Shown here: positions 1,033-5,168 of the stretch, piece by piece
Numbering within the stretch: position 1 is the stretch's first letter
How the letters are laid out: each line of letters opens with the position of its first letter
Source: Clostridia bacterium
Lineage (GTDB): Bacteria > Bacillota_A > Clostridia > Oscillospirales > CAG-272
Direction: 5' to 3'
DNA length: 5,168 bases
Assembly (NCBI GenBank): GCA_017462145.1
Contig: JAFTRT010000178.1
Location: 1 to 5,168 of the forward strand
The notes under the pieces: generated by a model
Seen by the model: the letters and a program-made list of their open reading frames with translations, nothing else
Databases searched by the model: none
Told to the model about the DNA's origin: nothing
Made by a program: the position numbers and the translations under genes

Positions 1033-2967
1033 TTATTGTTCGGTCTCCTCATAGATCTCCAGGAGCCGTTCCTCCAGTTCGTTTTTCTTGGTATCCAGCT
1101 CGGACAGGCGTACGTAATCGGTTGCGGCCTCTCCTTGCATTTCTGTTTCAATGGTTTCAAGCTCTGCTTCAATGCGTTCTGCCTCGGCACGCAGACGTTC
1201 CAGTCGTTTTTGTGCCCGACGGAGCTCGGCGGCATTTTGCTTGTTTTTCAGATATTGCTCTTTTTGAGAAGAGACGGCCTGTATCGGTTGTGCTTCCGCT
1301 TCGGAAGGGGCAGTGTCCGCTCTTCGTTTGCGGTCACGGCACAATTCCTCGTAGCCCTGTCCGGGTGTTTCTACATGAATATCCCACATGGACGTACCGG
1401 CGGACGGGGTCAGGTCGATGATGCGAGTGGCTAACTTGTCAATGAGATAGCGGTCGTGAGAGACCACCAAAATGGTGCCGTCAAATTGAGAAAGCGCTTG
1501 CTCCAAAGCTTCACGGGAGTCGATATCCAAATGGTTGGTGGGCTCGTCCAGCACCAATACGTTCACGTCAGACAGCATCAGCTTGCAAAGGGTCAGTCGG
1601 GCTCGTTCGCCGCCACTGATCTCGGATACCTCCTTGAAAACGTCCTCTCCGAAAAAGCGGAAGAGAGACAGGGCGGTTCGAACCGCTGTTTCGGTCATGG
1701 CGGGATAGGTGTGCCAAAGCTCCTCCAGTACGGTGTTTTGGAGATTCAACTGTTGGTTTTCCTGATCGTAATAGCCCACGTTGACGTTGTAGCCCATATC
1801 GACGTATCCCGATGTGGGGGCCAGCTTGCCCAACAGGAGCTTGATCAGGGTGGATTTTCCGCATCCGTTGGGGCCGACAAAGAAAAGCCGGTCTCCTCTC
1901 TTGACCAAAAAGGACAGCGGACGCAACAGGGGCACGGATGGGGTATAGGAAAAGGCAAGATCCCGAACCGTCAGCACGTCGTTGCCCGTCACGGCAGAGG
2001 AGGAAAAGCTCATGCGGATGGCACGGAGATCCTCCTGTGGGCGCTCCAGCTTTTCCATTTTGTCCAACAGCTTCAAGCGGCTCTCGGCGGCAATGATATT
2101 GCGTTCCCGATTCCAACGGCGTTGTTGGGCGATGTAGGCCTCCTGGCGGGCGATCTCCTTTTGTTGATTTCGCCAATGGCGTTCTTCGATCTCACGGTCG
2201 ATGCGCCTTTGTTCCATGCTTTTGGTATAGCCACCGTTGTAGAGCTTGGCCTTGTGATGCTCGATACAGAGGGTCTTGGTGGTAACACGATCCAAAAAGT
2301 AACGGTCGTGGGAGATGACCAAGACGCATTTTTTATAGCACATCAAGAACTGCTCCAACCAATCCAACGTTTCCATATCCAAATGGTTGGTAGGTTCGTC
2401 CAACATCAGAATATCCGGCTCACGGCACAGCTCACGGGAGAGAGCCAGACGGGTACGCTGACCGCCGCTGAACGTGGAGAAGGGGCGGTGCATGGCTTCC
2501 TCGTCAAAGCCCATGCGGCGAAGCGTGGAGGCACAGCGCCCGCGAAATTCCAGACCGCCCTCACGGATAAAGGCTTCATTGAGTGCGGTATATTCGGCGG
2601 TGAGCTCCTCGGTTGCTTCATTGGCTAAGCGTTGTTCTAACAAGGACAGGTGTTCCTCCATGGCCAAGAGGTCGGGGAAAGAGCGATACATCAGCTCCAG
2701 AGCGGAAAGCTCCTCCTCCCCTACCAGTAAGCGTTCCAAGGCTTCATTTTGCCGCAAAATTCCTACGGTCTTATCTTTGGAACGATATACGTGCCCCGAG
2801 TCGGGTGTCAGCTCCCCTAAAATCAGACGGAACAGGGTGGATTTTCCCGCACCGTTGGACCCGATAATGCCGATCCGATCGGCCTCGTCGGCGGCAAAGG
2901 TCACGCCGTCCAGGATGACCTTGGTGCCAAAGGAAAGGGAAAGTCGGTCAATATTGAGTGCGATCAT
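1033..2967 (-). CDS. ABC-F family ATPase, YdiF/Uup-like, ribosome-associated
   Basis: The 644 residues contain two fused ATP-binding domains and no membrane segment, which defines ABC-F proteins. These bind the ribosomal E site and relieve stalled or blocked translation. Domain 1 has Walker A GSNGAGKST (36-44), signature SGGQ (167-170), Walker B ending LMLDE with catalytic Glu191, and switch His220. A charged alpha-helical linker (about 245-325) corresponds to the P-site tRNA interaction motif. Domain 2 has Walker A GPNGCGKST (365-373), signature SGGE (451-454), LVLDE with Glu475, and His504. The C-terminus (about 565-642) is a charged coiled coil, as in YdiF and Uup. The frame stays open up to 3045, but that start would overlap the repressor gene. 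ATG 2967 begins directly with the conserved first strand and has an AAGGA site ten bases upstream. The linker is not unusually long, so a housekeeping translation factor is likelier than an antibiotic-resistance type, though resistance cannot be excluded. The gene is second in the repressor operon. Confidence 0.93.
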   Translation of the reverse strand: MIALNIDRLSLSFGTKVILDGVTFAADEADRIGIIGSNGAGKSTLFRLILGELTPDSGHVYRSKDKTVGILRQNEALERLLVGEEELSALELMYRSFPDLLAMEEHLSLLEQRLANEATEELTAEYTALNEAFIREGGLEFRGRCASTLRRMGFDEEAMHRPFSTFSGGQRTRLALSRELCREPDILMLDEPTNHLDMETLDWLEQFLMCYKKCVLVISHDRYFLDRVTTKTLCIEHHKAKLYNGGYTKSMEQRRIDREIEERHWRNQQKEIARQEAYIAQQRRWNRERNIIAAESRLKLLDKMEKLERPQEDLRAIRMSFSSSAVTGNDVLTVRDLAFSYTPSVPLLRPLSFLVKRGDRLFFVGPNGCGKSTLIKLLLGKLAPTSGYVDMGYNVNVGYYDQENQQLNLQNTVLEELWHTYPAMTETAVRTALSLFRFFGEDVFKEVSEISGGERARLTLCKLMLSDVNVLVLDEPTNHLDIDSREALEQALSQFDGTILVVSHDRYLIDKLATRIIDLTPSAGTSMWDIHVETPGQGYEELCRDRKRRADTAPSEAEAQPIQAVSSQKEQYLKNKQNAAELRRAQKRLERLRAEAERIEAELETIETEMQGEAATDYVRLSELDTKKNELEERLLEIYEETEQ

Positions 2968-2980
2968 ACAAAGAGATTCC

Positions 2981-3577
2981 TTACAGTTTGATTTTAATTT
3001 CCTTGGCCACGCCCAAAATGCGTGCCTCTCCCGATTCAAAGTCATCGGTGGTCAGATGAATGGGCGTGTATTCCTCGTTTTCGGGGAGCAGATATACGTT
3101 GCGCTTGACACGTTGAAAGCGTTTCACCGTGGCACAGTCGCCTCCCACCAAGCAGGCAACCACGTCTCCGTCCTCGGCATACTGCTGCTTGTGAAAAAGC
3201 ACCAGAGATCCCTCCATCATGCCGATGTCTTTCATGCTGTCACCTACGATCTTCAGATAGAAATAATCCTCTGCATCGCCTACGTCGGCGTATTCATAGC
3301 CCAAAAGAGATTCGTCGGTCAGAATGGGCGAGCCTGCACGGATCTCTCCGATAATGGGAATTTGCCGTTCCTTGGCGTGTGGCTCGTCCTCCCCCAAAAA
3401 ATAGGACAGAGAAACGCCAAAATGATGGGCCAACAGCTTGAGCTTTTCGGTTTTGGGAACCGACCGTCCGTTTTTCCAGTCGGTAAAGGTGGAGGGCGAG
3501 ATTTTGGTTGCTTGGGCCACCCGATATACTGTTGTATTGTTCATTTTCAATAATCGTTCCAAGAGAGCGTAGTCCAT
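2981..3577 (-). CDS. XRE-type repressor with self-cleaving S24 (LexA/CI-like) domain
   Basis: This 198-residue protein joins an N-terminal XRE/Cro-type helix-turn-helix (about 14-38, with ISPSTFTDWKNGR as the recognition segment) to a C-terminal S24 peptidase domain. The self-cleavage residues are all present: the Ala81-Gly82 scissile bond in GEIRAGSP, nucleophile Ser114 in VGDSM, and general base Lys152 in ATVKRF. Such proteins bind operators as dimers and are inactivated when RecA filaments on damaged DNA stimulate self-cleavage. True LexA has a winged helix instead, so this is a CI-like or stress-response repressor and not the SOS master regulator. The frame is open back to 3697, but ATG 3577 has a strong AAAAAGGAG site six bases upstream and starts the DNA-binding domain. 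The gene heads an operon with the ABC-F and nucleosidase genes and is transcribed away from the microprotein and sigma-like genes, which are its likely targets. Autoregulation is inferred from the palindrome in its leader. Confidence 0.93.
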   Translation of the reverse strand: MDYALLERLLKMNNTTVYRVAQATKISPSTFTDWKNGRSVPKTEKLKLLAHHFGVSLSYFLGEDEPHAKERQIPIIGEIRAGSPILTDESLLGYEYADVGDAEDYFYLKIVGDSMKDIGMMEGSLVLFHKQQYAEDGDVVACLVGGDCATVKRFQRVKRNVYLLPENEEYTPIHLTTDDFESGEARILGVAKEIKIKL

Positions 3578-3607: not shown

Positions 3608-3627
3608 TATTTCGGAAATCCGAAATA
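3608..3627. promoter_or_regulatory. Perfect 20-bp palindrome, probable repressor operator (O1)
   Basis: The sequence TATTTCGGA-AA-TCCGAAATA has perfect nine-base arms around a two-base centre. It lies five bases upstream of the plus-promoter -35 box and within the leader of the repressor transcript. Its size and symmetry suit a dimeric helix-turn-helix protein, and the neighbouring repressor is the obvious candidate. It does not resemble the Bacillus/Clostridium LexA box (GAAC-N4-GTTC), in line with this not being LexA. That a protein binds here is an inference. Confidence 0.65.
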
Positions 3628-3632
3628 GATAC

Positions 3633-3661
3633 TTGACAACCATTCTGATTTCCGCTATAAT
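3633..3661 (+). promoter_or_regulatory. Consensus SigA promoter for the microprotein and sigma-like genes
   Basis: TTGACA (3633-3638) and TATAAT (3656-3661) are separated by exactly 17 bases, a perfect match to the housekeeping consensus. Transcription should start near 3668 and give a leader of about 95 bases before ATG 3763. A promoter this strong usually needs a repressor to keep it quiet. The operator-like site at 3640-3659 covers its spacer and part of its -10 box. Confidence 0.82.
3640..3659. promoter_or_regulatory. Degenerate operator-like site (O2) over the plus promoter
   Basis: Aligned by centre with the 20-bp palindrome, this stretch matches at 12 of 20 positions, including GAT-TTCCG, which is identical to the minus strand of O1. 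Its centre lies at 3649.5, exactly 32 bases from the O1 centre (3617.5). It covers the spacer and the first four bases of the plus-strand -10 box. The match is uneven: the right half is good and the left half weak, so this is a candidate and not a clear site. Confidence 0.4.
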
Positions 3662-3671
3662 ATTGCTGTCG

Positions 3672-3691
3672 GATTCATTATATCCGAAAAC
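3672..3691. promoter_or_regulatory. Degenerate operator-like site (O3) over the minus promoter
   Basis: Centred at 3681.5, another 32 bases on from O2, it matches the O1 palindrome at 12 of 20 positions, with a strong right half ATCCGAAA. A second way to read the region is TCGGAT-N7-ATCCGA (3669-3687), an imperfectly spaced inverted repeat of the same half-site. Either way it covers the -10 box of the repressor promoter (3677-3682) and the first bases of the opposing transcript. Confidence 0.4.
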
Positions 3692-3705
3692 ATCCATTTT
3701 GTCAA
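3677..3705 (-). promoter_or_regulatory. Consensus SigA promoter for the repressor operon
   Basis: On the minus strand TTGACA (3700-3705) and TATAAT (3677-3682) are separated by 17 bases, again a perfect consensus. Transcription should start near 3670, with a leader of about 93 bases before ATG 3577. The -10 box is only 15 bases from the -10 box of the plus promoter. The two promoters point toward each other, so polymerase at one should block the other. Confidence 0.82.
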
Positions 3706-3762: not shown

Positions 3763-3942
3763 ATGTGTAAAATTTGTCATTATCGCTTTTGTCCGCCTGC
3801 TTGCCCATCCTTTGACGGCAGGAGCTCGGAACTGGGAGAAAGGGTTGGATTCTGTCGGAAATGCGGAAGTCCGCTTTATGAAACTGAGACGGTAATCCGC
3901 ACAAGCGGGCGTTTGTATTGTGTCGATTGTGCTCCTTTTTAA
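3763..3942 (+). CDS. Cysteine-rich zinc-binding microprotein, 59 residues
   Basis: ATG 3763 to TAA 3940-3942 encodes 59 residues with eight cysteines in four pairs: C2-x2-C5, C10-x3-C14, C31-x2-C34 and C53-x2-C56. The sequence opens MCKIC, continues CPPACP, then has CRKCGSPLYE and ends YCVDCAPF. The second half resembles a zinc ribbon or LIM-like knuckle (CxxCG, a beta turn, then CxxC), so one or two zinc ions are probable. I recall short hypothetical proteins of this pattern in Clostridia but cannot name a family. The AAGGAG site (3742-3747) is 15 bases upstream, longer than ideal, yet no better in-frame start exists because all eight paired cysteines follow ATG 3763. It sits first in the plus-strand transcript, 50 bases before the sigma-like gene. 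A role as a nucleic-acid or protein adaptor, perhaps with that neighbour, is a guess. No signal peptide or membrane segment is present. Confidence 0.8.
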   Translation: MCKICHYRFCPPACPSFDGRSSELGERVGFCRKCGSPLYETETVIRTSGRLYCVDCAPF

Positions 3943-3992: not shown

Positions 3993-4391
3993 GTGACCCA
4001 AACAATGCATGGCTCCGTTGGGACGGAGGAAGAAAACAATCAAAAGCTTCTTCGGGAGACCGATCAATATTTGAGGGGGTATGCCCTGAATCGAAAGCTG
4101 TTGCGTTTGGATCGTTATGAGAGGGAATTTTTCAAGCAACGGGAGACCGAGGCGGGAGAGCCCTTTGGCGAGGGCGTGTTGGCACGTGCCCGAATGTTTG
4201 AAATCCGTCATTTTGTGATGTCTATGGACAACAGCGACGAAAAGCTGTTCCTCTATTACCATTACATCAAAGGGCAATCGGTGGAGCGTTGCGGAGAGCT
4301 GTTGGGCCTTTCCAGAAGCAGTGCCTTTCGCATGAAAAAACGAGCTTTGCTGTTGGCGGGAAGGCATCGCAATAGCTTGGAGACGACGTAA
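3993..4391 (+). CDS. Sigma-70 region-4-like helix-turn-helix protein
   Basis: The 132-residue frame starts at GTG 3993, five bases after an AAGGAGG site. A downstream ATG at 4005 is spaced too far (17 bases) to be preferred. The N-terminal half (about 12-55) is a charged, probably helical segment containing YALNRKLLRLDRYEREFF. The C-terminal half holds a helix-turn-helix: IKGQSVERCGELLGLSRSSAFRMKKRAL (about 92-119), like the -35-binding region 4 of sigma factors and the small sigma-like regulators of phages (ArpU, RinA and DUF1492-type). No region 2, which would bind the -10 box, is visible, so it is not a complete sigma factor. It may be an activator or partner of RNA polymerase, or a remnant of a prophage regulator. 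It shares the strong plus promoter with the zinc microprotein and ends at a terminator. The general class is fairly certain; the target is unknown. Confidence 0.75.
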   Translation: MTQTMHGSVGTEEENNQKLLRETDQYLRGYALNRKLLRLDRYEREFFKQRETEAGEPFGEGVLARARMFEIRHFVMSMDNSDEKLFLYYHYIKGQSVERCGELLGLSRSSAFRMKKRALLLAGRHRNSLETT

Positions 4392-4426
4392 AAACAGCCG
4401 CAGAGAATCACTCTGCGGCTGTTTTT
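4390..4426. terminator. Bidirectional intrinsic terminator
   Basis: AAAACAGCCGCAGAG (4391-4405) pairs perfectly with CTCTGCGGCTGTTTT (4411-4425) around the five-base loop AATCA. It is followed on the plus strand by a T run (4422-4427) and preceded by an A run that acts as the T run on the minus strand. It lies directly after the sigma-like gene and 12 bases past the end of ftsH, so it should end both convergent transcripts. Confidence 0.93.
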
Positions 4427-4438
4427 TATTGCTTCGGA

Positions 4439-5074
4439 TCAAGCGTTGGTATCATCCTCATCGGAGGTGGATTCTTCTTCGCTTTCCTCCACGTCCTCGG
4501 AGTCTTCCGTCTCATCCGGAGCCGGGATCGTTTCTTCCTCGGCATCCGCTTCTTCCTCGGGAGATTCCATGGGTGCGATCTTTTCGGCTTCGGCCTTCAA
4601 GGCTTCTTCCTCGGCTTTTTTACGGGCGGCAATGGCCTCCTGACGGCGGCGCTCTTCATTTTCCTCCCGACTCTTGCGCTTTTTGGCCTCGGTCATTTCC
4701 TCCAGCTCTTCAAAGGTGGGATCTCCCTCCATGGCGGCGGCAAACTGCTCACCGTCCATCACCTCGTTCTTCAGCAGGAATTCGGCCACAAAGTGCAATT
4801 TATCCATATTTTCGGTCAAAATGCGCTTTGCATGTTCGTATGCTTGGGTAATGATGGTGTGGATCTCGGCATCGATCTTTGCTGCGGTCTCATCCGAGTT
4901 GTCCTGAGAGCTGGAGAAATCCCGTCCCAGGAAGATCTCGCCCTGATCGGTTCCAAAGGCACGAAGACCCAAAACCTTGCTCATACCCAACTGTGTGACC
5001 ATGCGCTTGGCAACGTCGGTGGCTCGCTTGATATCGTTGGACGCACCGCCCGACACATCTCCAAAGATCAGCTC
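4439..5074 (-). CDS. ftsH: ATP-dependent zinc metalloprotease FtsH, C-terminal part
   Basis: FtsH is a membrane-anchored AAA+ hexamer that degrades misfolded membrane proteins and short-lived regulators. Only the end of the M41 peptidase domain is here. It reads from ELIFGDVSGGASNDIKRAT, where the Asp of GASND is the third zinc ligand, through MVTQLGMS, the FLGRDFS motif, and the helical KIDAEI...AYEHAKRILTENMDKL segment. The HExxH zinc site, the AAA+ domain and the membrane segments would lie beyond the right edge. After the fold comes a long tail of about 90 residues: a basic, coiled stretch (KKRKSREENEERRRQE and following) and then a very acidic Glu/Asp/Ser-rich end. The gene ends at TGA 4439-4441. 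A GTG at 5056 could be miscalled as a start, but it encodes the Val of FGDVS inside the conserved domain. The frame is interrupted at 5075 by a TAA where FtsH has Glu. Confidence 0.9.
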   Translation of the reverse strand, partial: ELIFGDVSGGASNDIKRATDVAKRMVTQLGMSKVLGLRAFGTDQGEIFLGRDFSSSQDNSDETAAKIDAEIHTIITQAYEHAKRILTENMDKLHFVAEFLLKNEVMDGEQFAAAMEGDPTFEELEEMTEAKKRKSREENEERRRQEAIAARKKAEEEALKAEAEKIAPMESPEEEADAEEETIPAPDETEDSEDVEESEEESTSDEDDTNA

Positions 5075-5168
5075 TTATGCGGCACTGCCGCCCAAAAGCA
5101 TGGCGATCTTTTCCTTCAGCTCGGTTTAATAAACGCTGTATTTATCTTAATTGTGAGGATTTAGGGTA
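5075..5168 (-). pseudogene. ftsH: Upstream ftsH sequence with three in-frame stop codons
   Basis: In the same frame as the ftsH fragment, this stretch reads DKYSVY-stop-TELKEKIAMLLGGSAA-stop, clearly FtsH. TAA codons occur at 5075-5077, 5126-5128 and 5147-5149, where Glu (GAA), Lys (AAA) and Glu (GAA) would be expected, each one base change away. A Ser stands where the family has Arg (LLGGR), and TLNPHN before the third stop matches FtsH poorly. Changes this dense lie only at the window's edge, while the downstream 630 bases are clean. I read this as low-quality contig-end sequence; a genuinely broken ftsH is the alternative. Confidence 0.7.

Follow-up and report, generated by a model that had tools for sequence, protein, structure and literature searches.

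Two consensus promoters face each other across one predicted start region between a LexA/CI-type repressor operon and a sigma-like operon in Clostridia

What is achieved by two promoters of perfect consensus that face each other and appear to begin transcription at nearly the same point? The question is raised by a 5,168-nucleotide stretch of clostridial DNA, the whole of which was analysed and is referred to here as the window. A first-pass annotation had placed an exact TTGACA-N17-TATAAT promoter on each strand, with 15 bases between the −10 hexamers, and both the coordinates and the sequences were confirmed in the window. P+ (3633..3661, + strand) drives an operon for a microprotein and a sigma-like protein, and P− (3677..3705, − strand) drives the operon for a repressor and an ABC-F type ATPase. 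The 15 bp gap between the −10 boxes (3662..3676) holds both predicted starts, which, taken 7 nt downstream of each −10, fall at G3668 on the + strand and at the G opposite C3670 on the − strand, in agreement with the start region of about 3668–3670 that had been predicted; each is preceded by a pyrimidine. As read from the sequence, these are two sigma-70/SigA-type promoters on opposite strands that face one another. They are not a bidirectional promoter with a shared −10 (Warman type), as there are two distinct −10 hexamers and the predicted starts lie between them.

The repressor gene (2981..3577, − strand) encodes a LexA/CI-like protein of 198 aa with a Cro/CI-type helix–turn–helix (HTH), an S24 peptidase domain, an Ala-Gly site and a Ser/Lys dyad. 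Directly downstream of it, and presumably on the same transcript, is a gene (1033..2967, − strand) for an ATPase that matches ABC_tran twice and also ABC_tran_Xtn, and which we take to be of the ABC-F type. On the + strand, a 59-aa Cys-rich, zinc-ribbon-like microprotein (3763..3942), whose Pfam matches were all below cut-off, is followed by a 132-aa sigma-region-4-like or DUF1492-like protein (3993..4391), and the operon ends in a hairpin resembling an intrinsic terminator (4390..4426, + strand). The sigma-like assignment is a weak one, drawn from a match to phrog_36 (E 2e–8; Pfam matches were below cut-off) and from a predicted structure (pLDDT 88.9) for which Foldseek returned sigma factors, many of them region 4, with a best E of 0.02; a sequence search for relatives among solved structures gave none that was credible. 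Judging from these matches and the model, the protein could bind DNA. No known RNA element reached the Rfam gathering scores in the window. The unit is flanked by two genes of housekeeping type, one of the nucleoside phosphorylase family and the other, present by its 3′ part, for an FtsH-type (M41) peptidase. By eye, the frame of the latter (− strand, window 5057–5168) has in-frame stops in its last ~110 bases, an interruption that looks like contig-end noise or decay.

A profile built from 28 repressor proteins yielded the best 80 of 129 candidate loci in a genome collection. Of these, L001–L068 are close relatives, found in draft metagenome assemblies of Clostridia, Oscillospiraceae or Ruminococcus, with herbivore gut samples named in many of the assembly titles; L069–L080, whose S24 proteins are distant, were excluded. 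The repressors of the close relatives are 52–73% identical to that of the window. The start region is missing from L067 and readable in the other 67, which together with the window make up 68 comparable loci, and in 61 of these a sigma-like gene is divergent to the repressor gene. An ABC-F gene lies beyond the repressor on the same strand in 64 of 69 loci (68 relatives and the window), although not immediately next door in seven of the 64 (L014, L020, L023, L030, L053, L056 and L059); of the five others, three (L003, L061 and L068) stop short of where it would lie, and two (L033 and L057) show no ABC-F gene within the flank. The S24 repressor and the ABC-F ATPase therefore appear to be co-expressed. 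Relatives of the microprotein (tblastn, E≤0.01) were found to the right of the repressor in 22 of the 68 relatives' loci.

Conservation of the promoters in relatives that keep both operons had been named as a test of the layout, and poor conservation was not what was seen. With the best-matching site per strand taken from within 300 bp at each locus, both promoters were face to face in 61 of 61 loci with the sigma-like gene, at 10–12 of 12 matches, with P+ itself at 12/12 or 11/12 in all 61. The window and these loci thus support the facing geometry that had been distinguished from that of back-to-back promoters. The gap between the −10 boxes is 13–17 bp in 50 loci, the window included (16 bp in 29, 15 in 10, 14 in seven, 13 in two and 17 in two; among the 50, L024 and L025 share both their assembly and their repressor sequence). 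In these short-gap loci, P+ matches at 12/12 in 43 and at 11/12 in seven, and P− at 12/12 in 35, 11/12 in 12 and 10/12 in three. The 17-bp spacers are kept beside both pairs of hexamers, down to a repressor identity of 52%. Across all 61 loci the gap has a median of 16 (quartiles 15–16, range 13–97), and the distance from the repressor start to P+ has a median of 58 (quartiles 53–96, range 41–153). The remaining 11 loci have gaps of 22, 25, 29, 29, 33, 49, 51, 53, 68, 92 and 97 bp, so the exact spacing is not essential. They fall in three parts of the repressor tree, whose midpoint root, itself weakly supported, has short-gap loci on either side.

The predicted start signals are conserved along with the promoters. 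In the 29 loci with a gap of 16, the + strand signal is a pyrimidine in column 6 (all 29) followed by a purine in column 7 (26 of 29), and for the − strand column 10 is a pyrimidine and column 11 a purine in all 29. A pyrimidine–purine signature is therefore present for each strand at the distance expected from its −10 box, from which starts may be predicted. The two RNAs had been expected hardly to overlap, and the predicted 5′ ends do overlap by as little as 2–4 nt in 48 of the 50 short-gap loci. The edge of a bound polymerase reaches to about +20. With the edge set at +20, complexes on the two promoters would clash at any gap below 52 bp, that is, in 57 of 61 loci, and would not in four. 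The physical exclusion of one polymerase by the other that was envisaged at the outset is thus likely on steric grounds, given this geometry.

It had also been held that two perfect promoters interlocked in this way are improbable by chance, and this is upheld by shuffling, by counts in genomes and, above all, by conservation. In 200 dinucleotide shuffles of the window, promoter matches with at most one mismatch averaged 0.01, and no shuffle contained two. A single perfect promoter is ordinary, since there are 77–160 in each of 15 related genomes (0–2 for a reversed-pattern control). Random placement of these, however, would give about 0.01 facing perfect pairs with a gap of 13–17 per genome. 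Among 391 genomes sampled from the class, in a scan that counted exact matches and left out near-perfect pairs, facing pairs with gaps of 4–34 were found in seven. Just one of the seven has a gap of 13–17, and it is the member of this family that was used as the centre; the gaps in the other six are 22–34. The facing pair, unlike the single promoter, is out of the ordinary, and its conservation is the strongest evidence against chance.

The repressor matches both PF01381 and PF00717 above cut-off, which places it among the HTH and S24 proteins. It is not a canonical LexA: no match to PF01726 was found at E≤0.1, and the NCBIfam lexA model TIGR00498 gave 95 bits against a cut-off of 110.95. Nevertheless, it aligns to LexA across the Ala-Gly site, the Ser and the Lys, and these four columns are invariant in 28 aligned repressor relatives. 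We take the Ala-Gly to be the cleavage site and the Ser and Lys to be the catalytic dyad. With a palindromic operator predicted in its own promoter and in that of a divergent target, the protein has the features of an S24 repressor of the LexA type that is probably self-cleaving, resembling HdiR and FddR.

The first-pass annotation had read the region as promoters alone. The promoters stand, as described above, but predicted operators for the repressor within P+ and near the start of P− had been overlooked. Each of the 68 loci has at least one match to the dyad TTCGSAWWTSCGAA at 11 of 14 positions or better, and 59 have matches at two or more start positions, overlapping registers being counted separately. 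In the window, the putative operator O1 (TTCGGAAATCCGAA, 3611..3624) lies upstream of the P+ −35 box. It is perfect, its arms extend to a 20-bp palindrome with a 2-bp centre (3608–3627), and its weight-matrix score of 22.0 equals the highest found. O2 (TTCTGATTTCCGCT, 3643..3656) is degenerate in the window, with a score of 11.5; it lies within the P+ spacer, overlaps the first base of the P+ −10 box, and falls at about +21 of the P− transcript. A half-operator, TCCGAAAA, is situated inside the P− spacer (3683..3690), where the full site scores 3.7. The weight matrix was derived from these same regions, so that the scores are not independent; the fixed positions are. All 50 short-gap loci have O2 at exactly the same position within the P+ spacer, and 10 of the 11 long-gap loci also have a site in that spacer (60/61). 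O1 is present upstream of the P+ −35 box in 40 of 50 and 6 of 11, respectively (46/61), and a full site in the P− spacer, O3, in 9 of 50 (in a register that differs from that of the window's half-site) and 1 of 11. From centre to centre, O1 and O2 are separated by 32 bp in the window and, among the 40 short-gap loci that have O1, by 31 bp in 35, a spacing of about three helical turns.

The seven loci without the sigma-like gene (L007, L008, L009, L018, L021, L026 and L029) indicate which promoter belongs to which operon. P− is retained in all seven at 11–12 of 12, whereas P+ has decayed: no site of at least 11/12 remains around the operator, and L009 holds a 10/12 remnant. (In L007 and L021 another + strand promoter, at 12/12 and 11/12, respectively, is found further right, beyond P− and before other genes.) The operator core GAAATNCG is nevertheless found to the left of P− in 7/7 (chance expectation ~0.006 per 60 nt). 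The matrix score near P− is at least 9 in five, and L009 and L029 keep the core string alone. P+ is lost together with the sigma-like gene while P− and the core are kept; P+ therefore serves the sigma operon. To judge from this retention of the core, O2 most likely acts at the repressor's own promoter as well.

It was of interest to know how far the regulation extends beyond the locus. In 15 genomes, exact operator patterns in intergenic positions (as given by mechanical ORF calls) were found solely beside this repressor. With up to one mismatch, 33 places were listed in four genomes, of which 30 were examined: 10 belong to the locus of the repressor itself, two of these falling within a spurious ORF, and the other 20 are in ORFs of 80 aa or more. 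Upstream of the recA match, no site among the four best scores at each of 13 recA loci exceeded 10.7, whereas the operators of the unit itself have a median of 17.1; the two best-placed high scores, 16.4 in L094 and 11.1 in L098, lie inside the recA match itself. A role as a global SOS regulator is thus unsupported as far as tested, with the operator copies local and recA without a good upstream site. Because no recA-upstream site scored above 10.7, the link to DNA damage comes entirely from protein homology. A different dyad, TTCCG-N4-CGGAA, precedes recA at three of the 13 loci (L096 1313, L099 1323 and L103 1340) and is possibly another SOS-type box.

A strong match to the canonical LexA DNA-binding domain (E 1e–10 or better) is present in eight of the 65 relatives' genomes (G003, G011, G014, G426, G442, G448, G449 and G455), and a match above the Pfam cut-off in 12 of 65. 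Strong matches are more frequent where the promoter gap is long (4 of 11 genomes) than where it is short (3 of 47), and 1 of the 7 no-sigma genomes has one; these counts are not independent, owing to kinship. RecA was found in 13 of 15 genomes, and incompleteness of the assemblies is therefore unlikely to explain all of the shortfall in LexA matches.

Our main reading, to which we assign a probability of roughly 0.7, is that the locus is a self-contained chromosomal divergent unit under the control of a LexA/CI-type repressor, in which the polymerases, once derepressed, would compete for one start region. With both O1 and O2 occupied by repressor dimers, on the same face of the helix, P+ would be closed, and O2 would also damp the repressor's own promoter. 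When the repressor falls, probably through self-cleavage as in LexA, HdiR and FddR, with DNA damage as the leading guess for the trigger, both strong promoters would open. Since the start region should accommodate one RNA polymerase at a time, the two operons would take turns. Competition between polymerases where promoters overlap is well established (PMC6593788, PMC12825309) and lends these steps support by analogy. The competition would set the ratio of their outputs and cap the burst, and would not by itself form a stable either/or switch.

Whether the shared start was itself selected is a separate matter. On one account it is a selected device, in which polymerase exclusion alone fixes the ratio of repressor and ABC-F to sigma-like protein after the repressor is released; this is offered tentatively, and we lean against it. 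The other account, to which we give a little less than an even chance, is that these are ordinary autoregulated divergent promoters, whose spacing lets one O2 complex act on both, so that exclusion is a by-product. The position of O2, fixed in P+ and near the P− start, fits this, as does the O2-like core in all seven loci without P+, and some of the facing pairs with longer gaps in the six other genomes of the class have, by eye, a clear dyad between the −10 boxes. If it were the distance from O2 to P− alone that counted, however, this distance should hold where P+ is gone, whereas the core lies 17–25 bp from P− in the no-sigma loci and 25–29 bp from it in 44 of the 47 short-gap loci with the core. 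Moreover, 10 of the 11 long-gap loci keep the site in P+, with its centre 34–109 bp from the P− −10 box.

The either/or switch proposed in the first-pass annotation is unsupported if a stable choice is meant. In a competition model with equal, saturating promoters, the log gain was 0.17, 0.34 and 0.69 for Hill coefficients of 1, 2 and 4, respectively, against a bistability threshold of 1. In addition, repression of both promoters through the same sites would make the feedback negative. Exclusion at each initiation event shares out the start point; by itself it makes no memory. A bistable toggle would require that the repressor, by closing P+, free P− from competition and so boost its own synthesis, with the sigma-like protein as the opposing lock. 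There is precedent, in that an indirect activation of pL by CI is reported for phage 186 in the portions of PMC6593788 that concern this switch, and some phage transcription regulators are distantly related to the sigma-like protein. The modelled gain at equal strength, however, stays below the threshold at every Hill coefficient from 1 to 4. P+ would have to be about 2 times stronger than P− at a Hill coefficient of 4, or more than 8 times at 2, and both promoters are of consensus sequence. O2 near the P− start, together with O3 in 9 of the 50 short-gap loci, predicts self-repression instead. We regard the toggle as unlikely.

Less likely still is a prophage immunity cassette, whether domesticated or resident, in place of a host regulatory unit. 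The combination of HTH and S24 domains is the architecture of phage repressors, and 150 phage records match the repressor, all at below 60% identity (32–36% in the eight listed). Against this, a search with two peptide patterns found no relatives of the repressor in viral contigs, no relatives of the sigma-like protein were found in phage records, the neighbours in the window are of housekeeping type, and the ABC-F gene is a near-constant companion of the repressor. A phage or mobile origin was accordingly set aside, with viral contigs lacking a relative of the repressor and phage records one of the sigma-like protein; an ancient phage origin of the locus is possible. That one of the two promoters goes unused in vivo, as a relic or permanently covered, is scarcely credible, given that hexamers, 17-bp spacers and start signals are kept at repressor identities as low as 52% and that P+ has decayed precisely where its gene is missing.

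Facing pairs of exact promoters do occur in viruses. They were found in 52 viral contigs, none with a gap of 13–17 and 11 with a gap of 18 or 19. Six of these 11 were inspected (L125, L126, L136, L142, L159 and L171) and lie, by eye, beside structural-looking genes with no repressor; one promoter of such pairs overlaps a gene start. A further exact facing pair, with a gap of 30, was seen at L178 (1501–1588), where an XRE-HTH gene and, after it, one of ImmA-like metallopeptidase type face a gene for a DinB-like polymerase, the genes being named by eye from their translations.

Several known systems share parts of this layout. The bioA and bioBFCD genes of E. coli are controlled by BirA through a shared repressor-operator, and the gene for that repressor, which senses biotin, is located elsewhere. 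The E. coli bio operon is described, in the part of PMC3494674 devoted to its layout, as having two facing promoters that drive two divergent operons, and the present unit is like it in having a facing pair for two divergent operons. Unlike in bio, the LexA-like repressor is here the first gene of one of the operons, both promoters are of exact consensus, and the predicted starts overlap by 2–4 bp.

Facing promoters in coliphage 186 were reportedly described by Dodd et al. in 1990. The promoters of that phage are further apart, and Pe and Pc of phage P2 are a comparable lysis–lysogeny pair; in the 186 and P2 switches, the opposing operon encodes a second repressor (Apl and Cox, respectively) that shuts off the first promoter. 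The present locus resembles the pR/pL pair of 186 in being convergent and under a CI-type repressor, and differs in its consensus promoters and its chromosomal position. In the account of 186 given in sections of PMC6593788, repressing one of the convergent promoters under CI frees the other from interference, which arises chiefly from firing polymerases that meet a 'sitting duck'; overlapping promoters, by comparison, compete, with one bound at a time. The promoters here overlap, and competition for binding is therefore expected, unlike in 186.

For bidirectional promoters with a shared −10, studied by Warman, Grainger and co-workers, relevant passages of PMC12825309 state that one polymerase binds at a time, that competition arises when activity is high, that the starts are most commonly 18 and also 10 or 23 bp apart, and that in five of five such promoters tested the basal activity was too low for competition. 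A single polymerase at a time is likewise expected in the present case, which differs in having two separate full promoters with the starts between the −10 boxes.

The closest likeness in regulator type and in self-contained divergent layout is to FddR of Francisella, which, as presented in parts of PMC13148647, regulates itself and a divergently transcribed gene. HdiR of the Streptococcaceae is similarly stated, within PMC8565304, to regulate itself and a UmuC homolog. Both are S24 repressors in lineages described in those sources as being without a canonical working LexA system, and to that extent the present repressor is comparable; compared with those lineages, however, 8 of the 65 related genomes here do have a strong canonical LexA match. 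The operator also differs, being TTCGSAWWTSCGAA here and GTG-N11-CAC for FddR in the section of PMC13148647 that gives it, and the partner genes and the interlocked consensus promoters set this unit apart from both. No description of the locus was found in literature queried by subject, on the facing-promoter layout, on S24 repressors and on the bio operator. Facing promoters are already known from bio and 186; what sets this case apart is a consensus pair at one start, in a conserved chromosomal unit, in uncultured gut Clostridia.

The weakness of natural promoters may be why competition is usually slight at two-way promoters, and the low basal activity of all five tested in PMC12825309 is in keeping with this. 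The locus is a clear-cut natural example of a form of gene control that is known but has received little study, in which the polymerases should take turns. The 50 short-gap loci, the 11 with gaps of 22–97 bp and the seven without the partner gene form a natural series in which exclusion may be weighed against the repressor as the setter of output. The unit also adds a candidate LexA-like local regulator to a group in which a strong canonical LexA is present in 8 of 65 genomes (draft metagenome assemblies). If the reading as a selected device is true, two promoters of maximal strength would have been kept interlocked, in mostly LexA-less gut Clostridia, as a means of setting the ratio between two operons.
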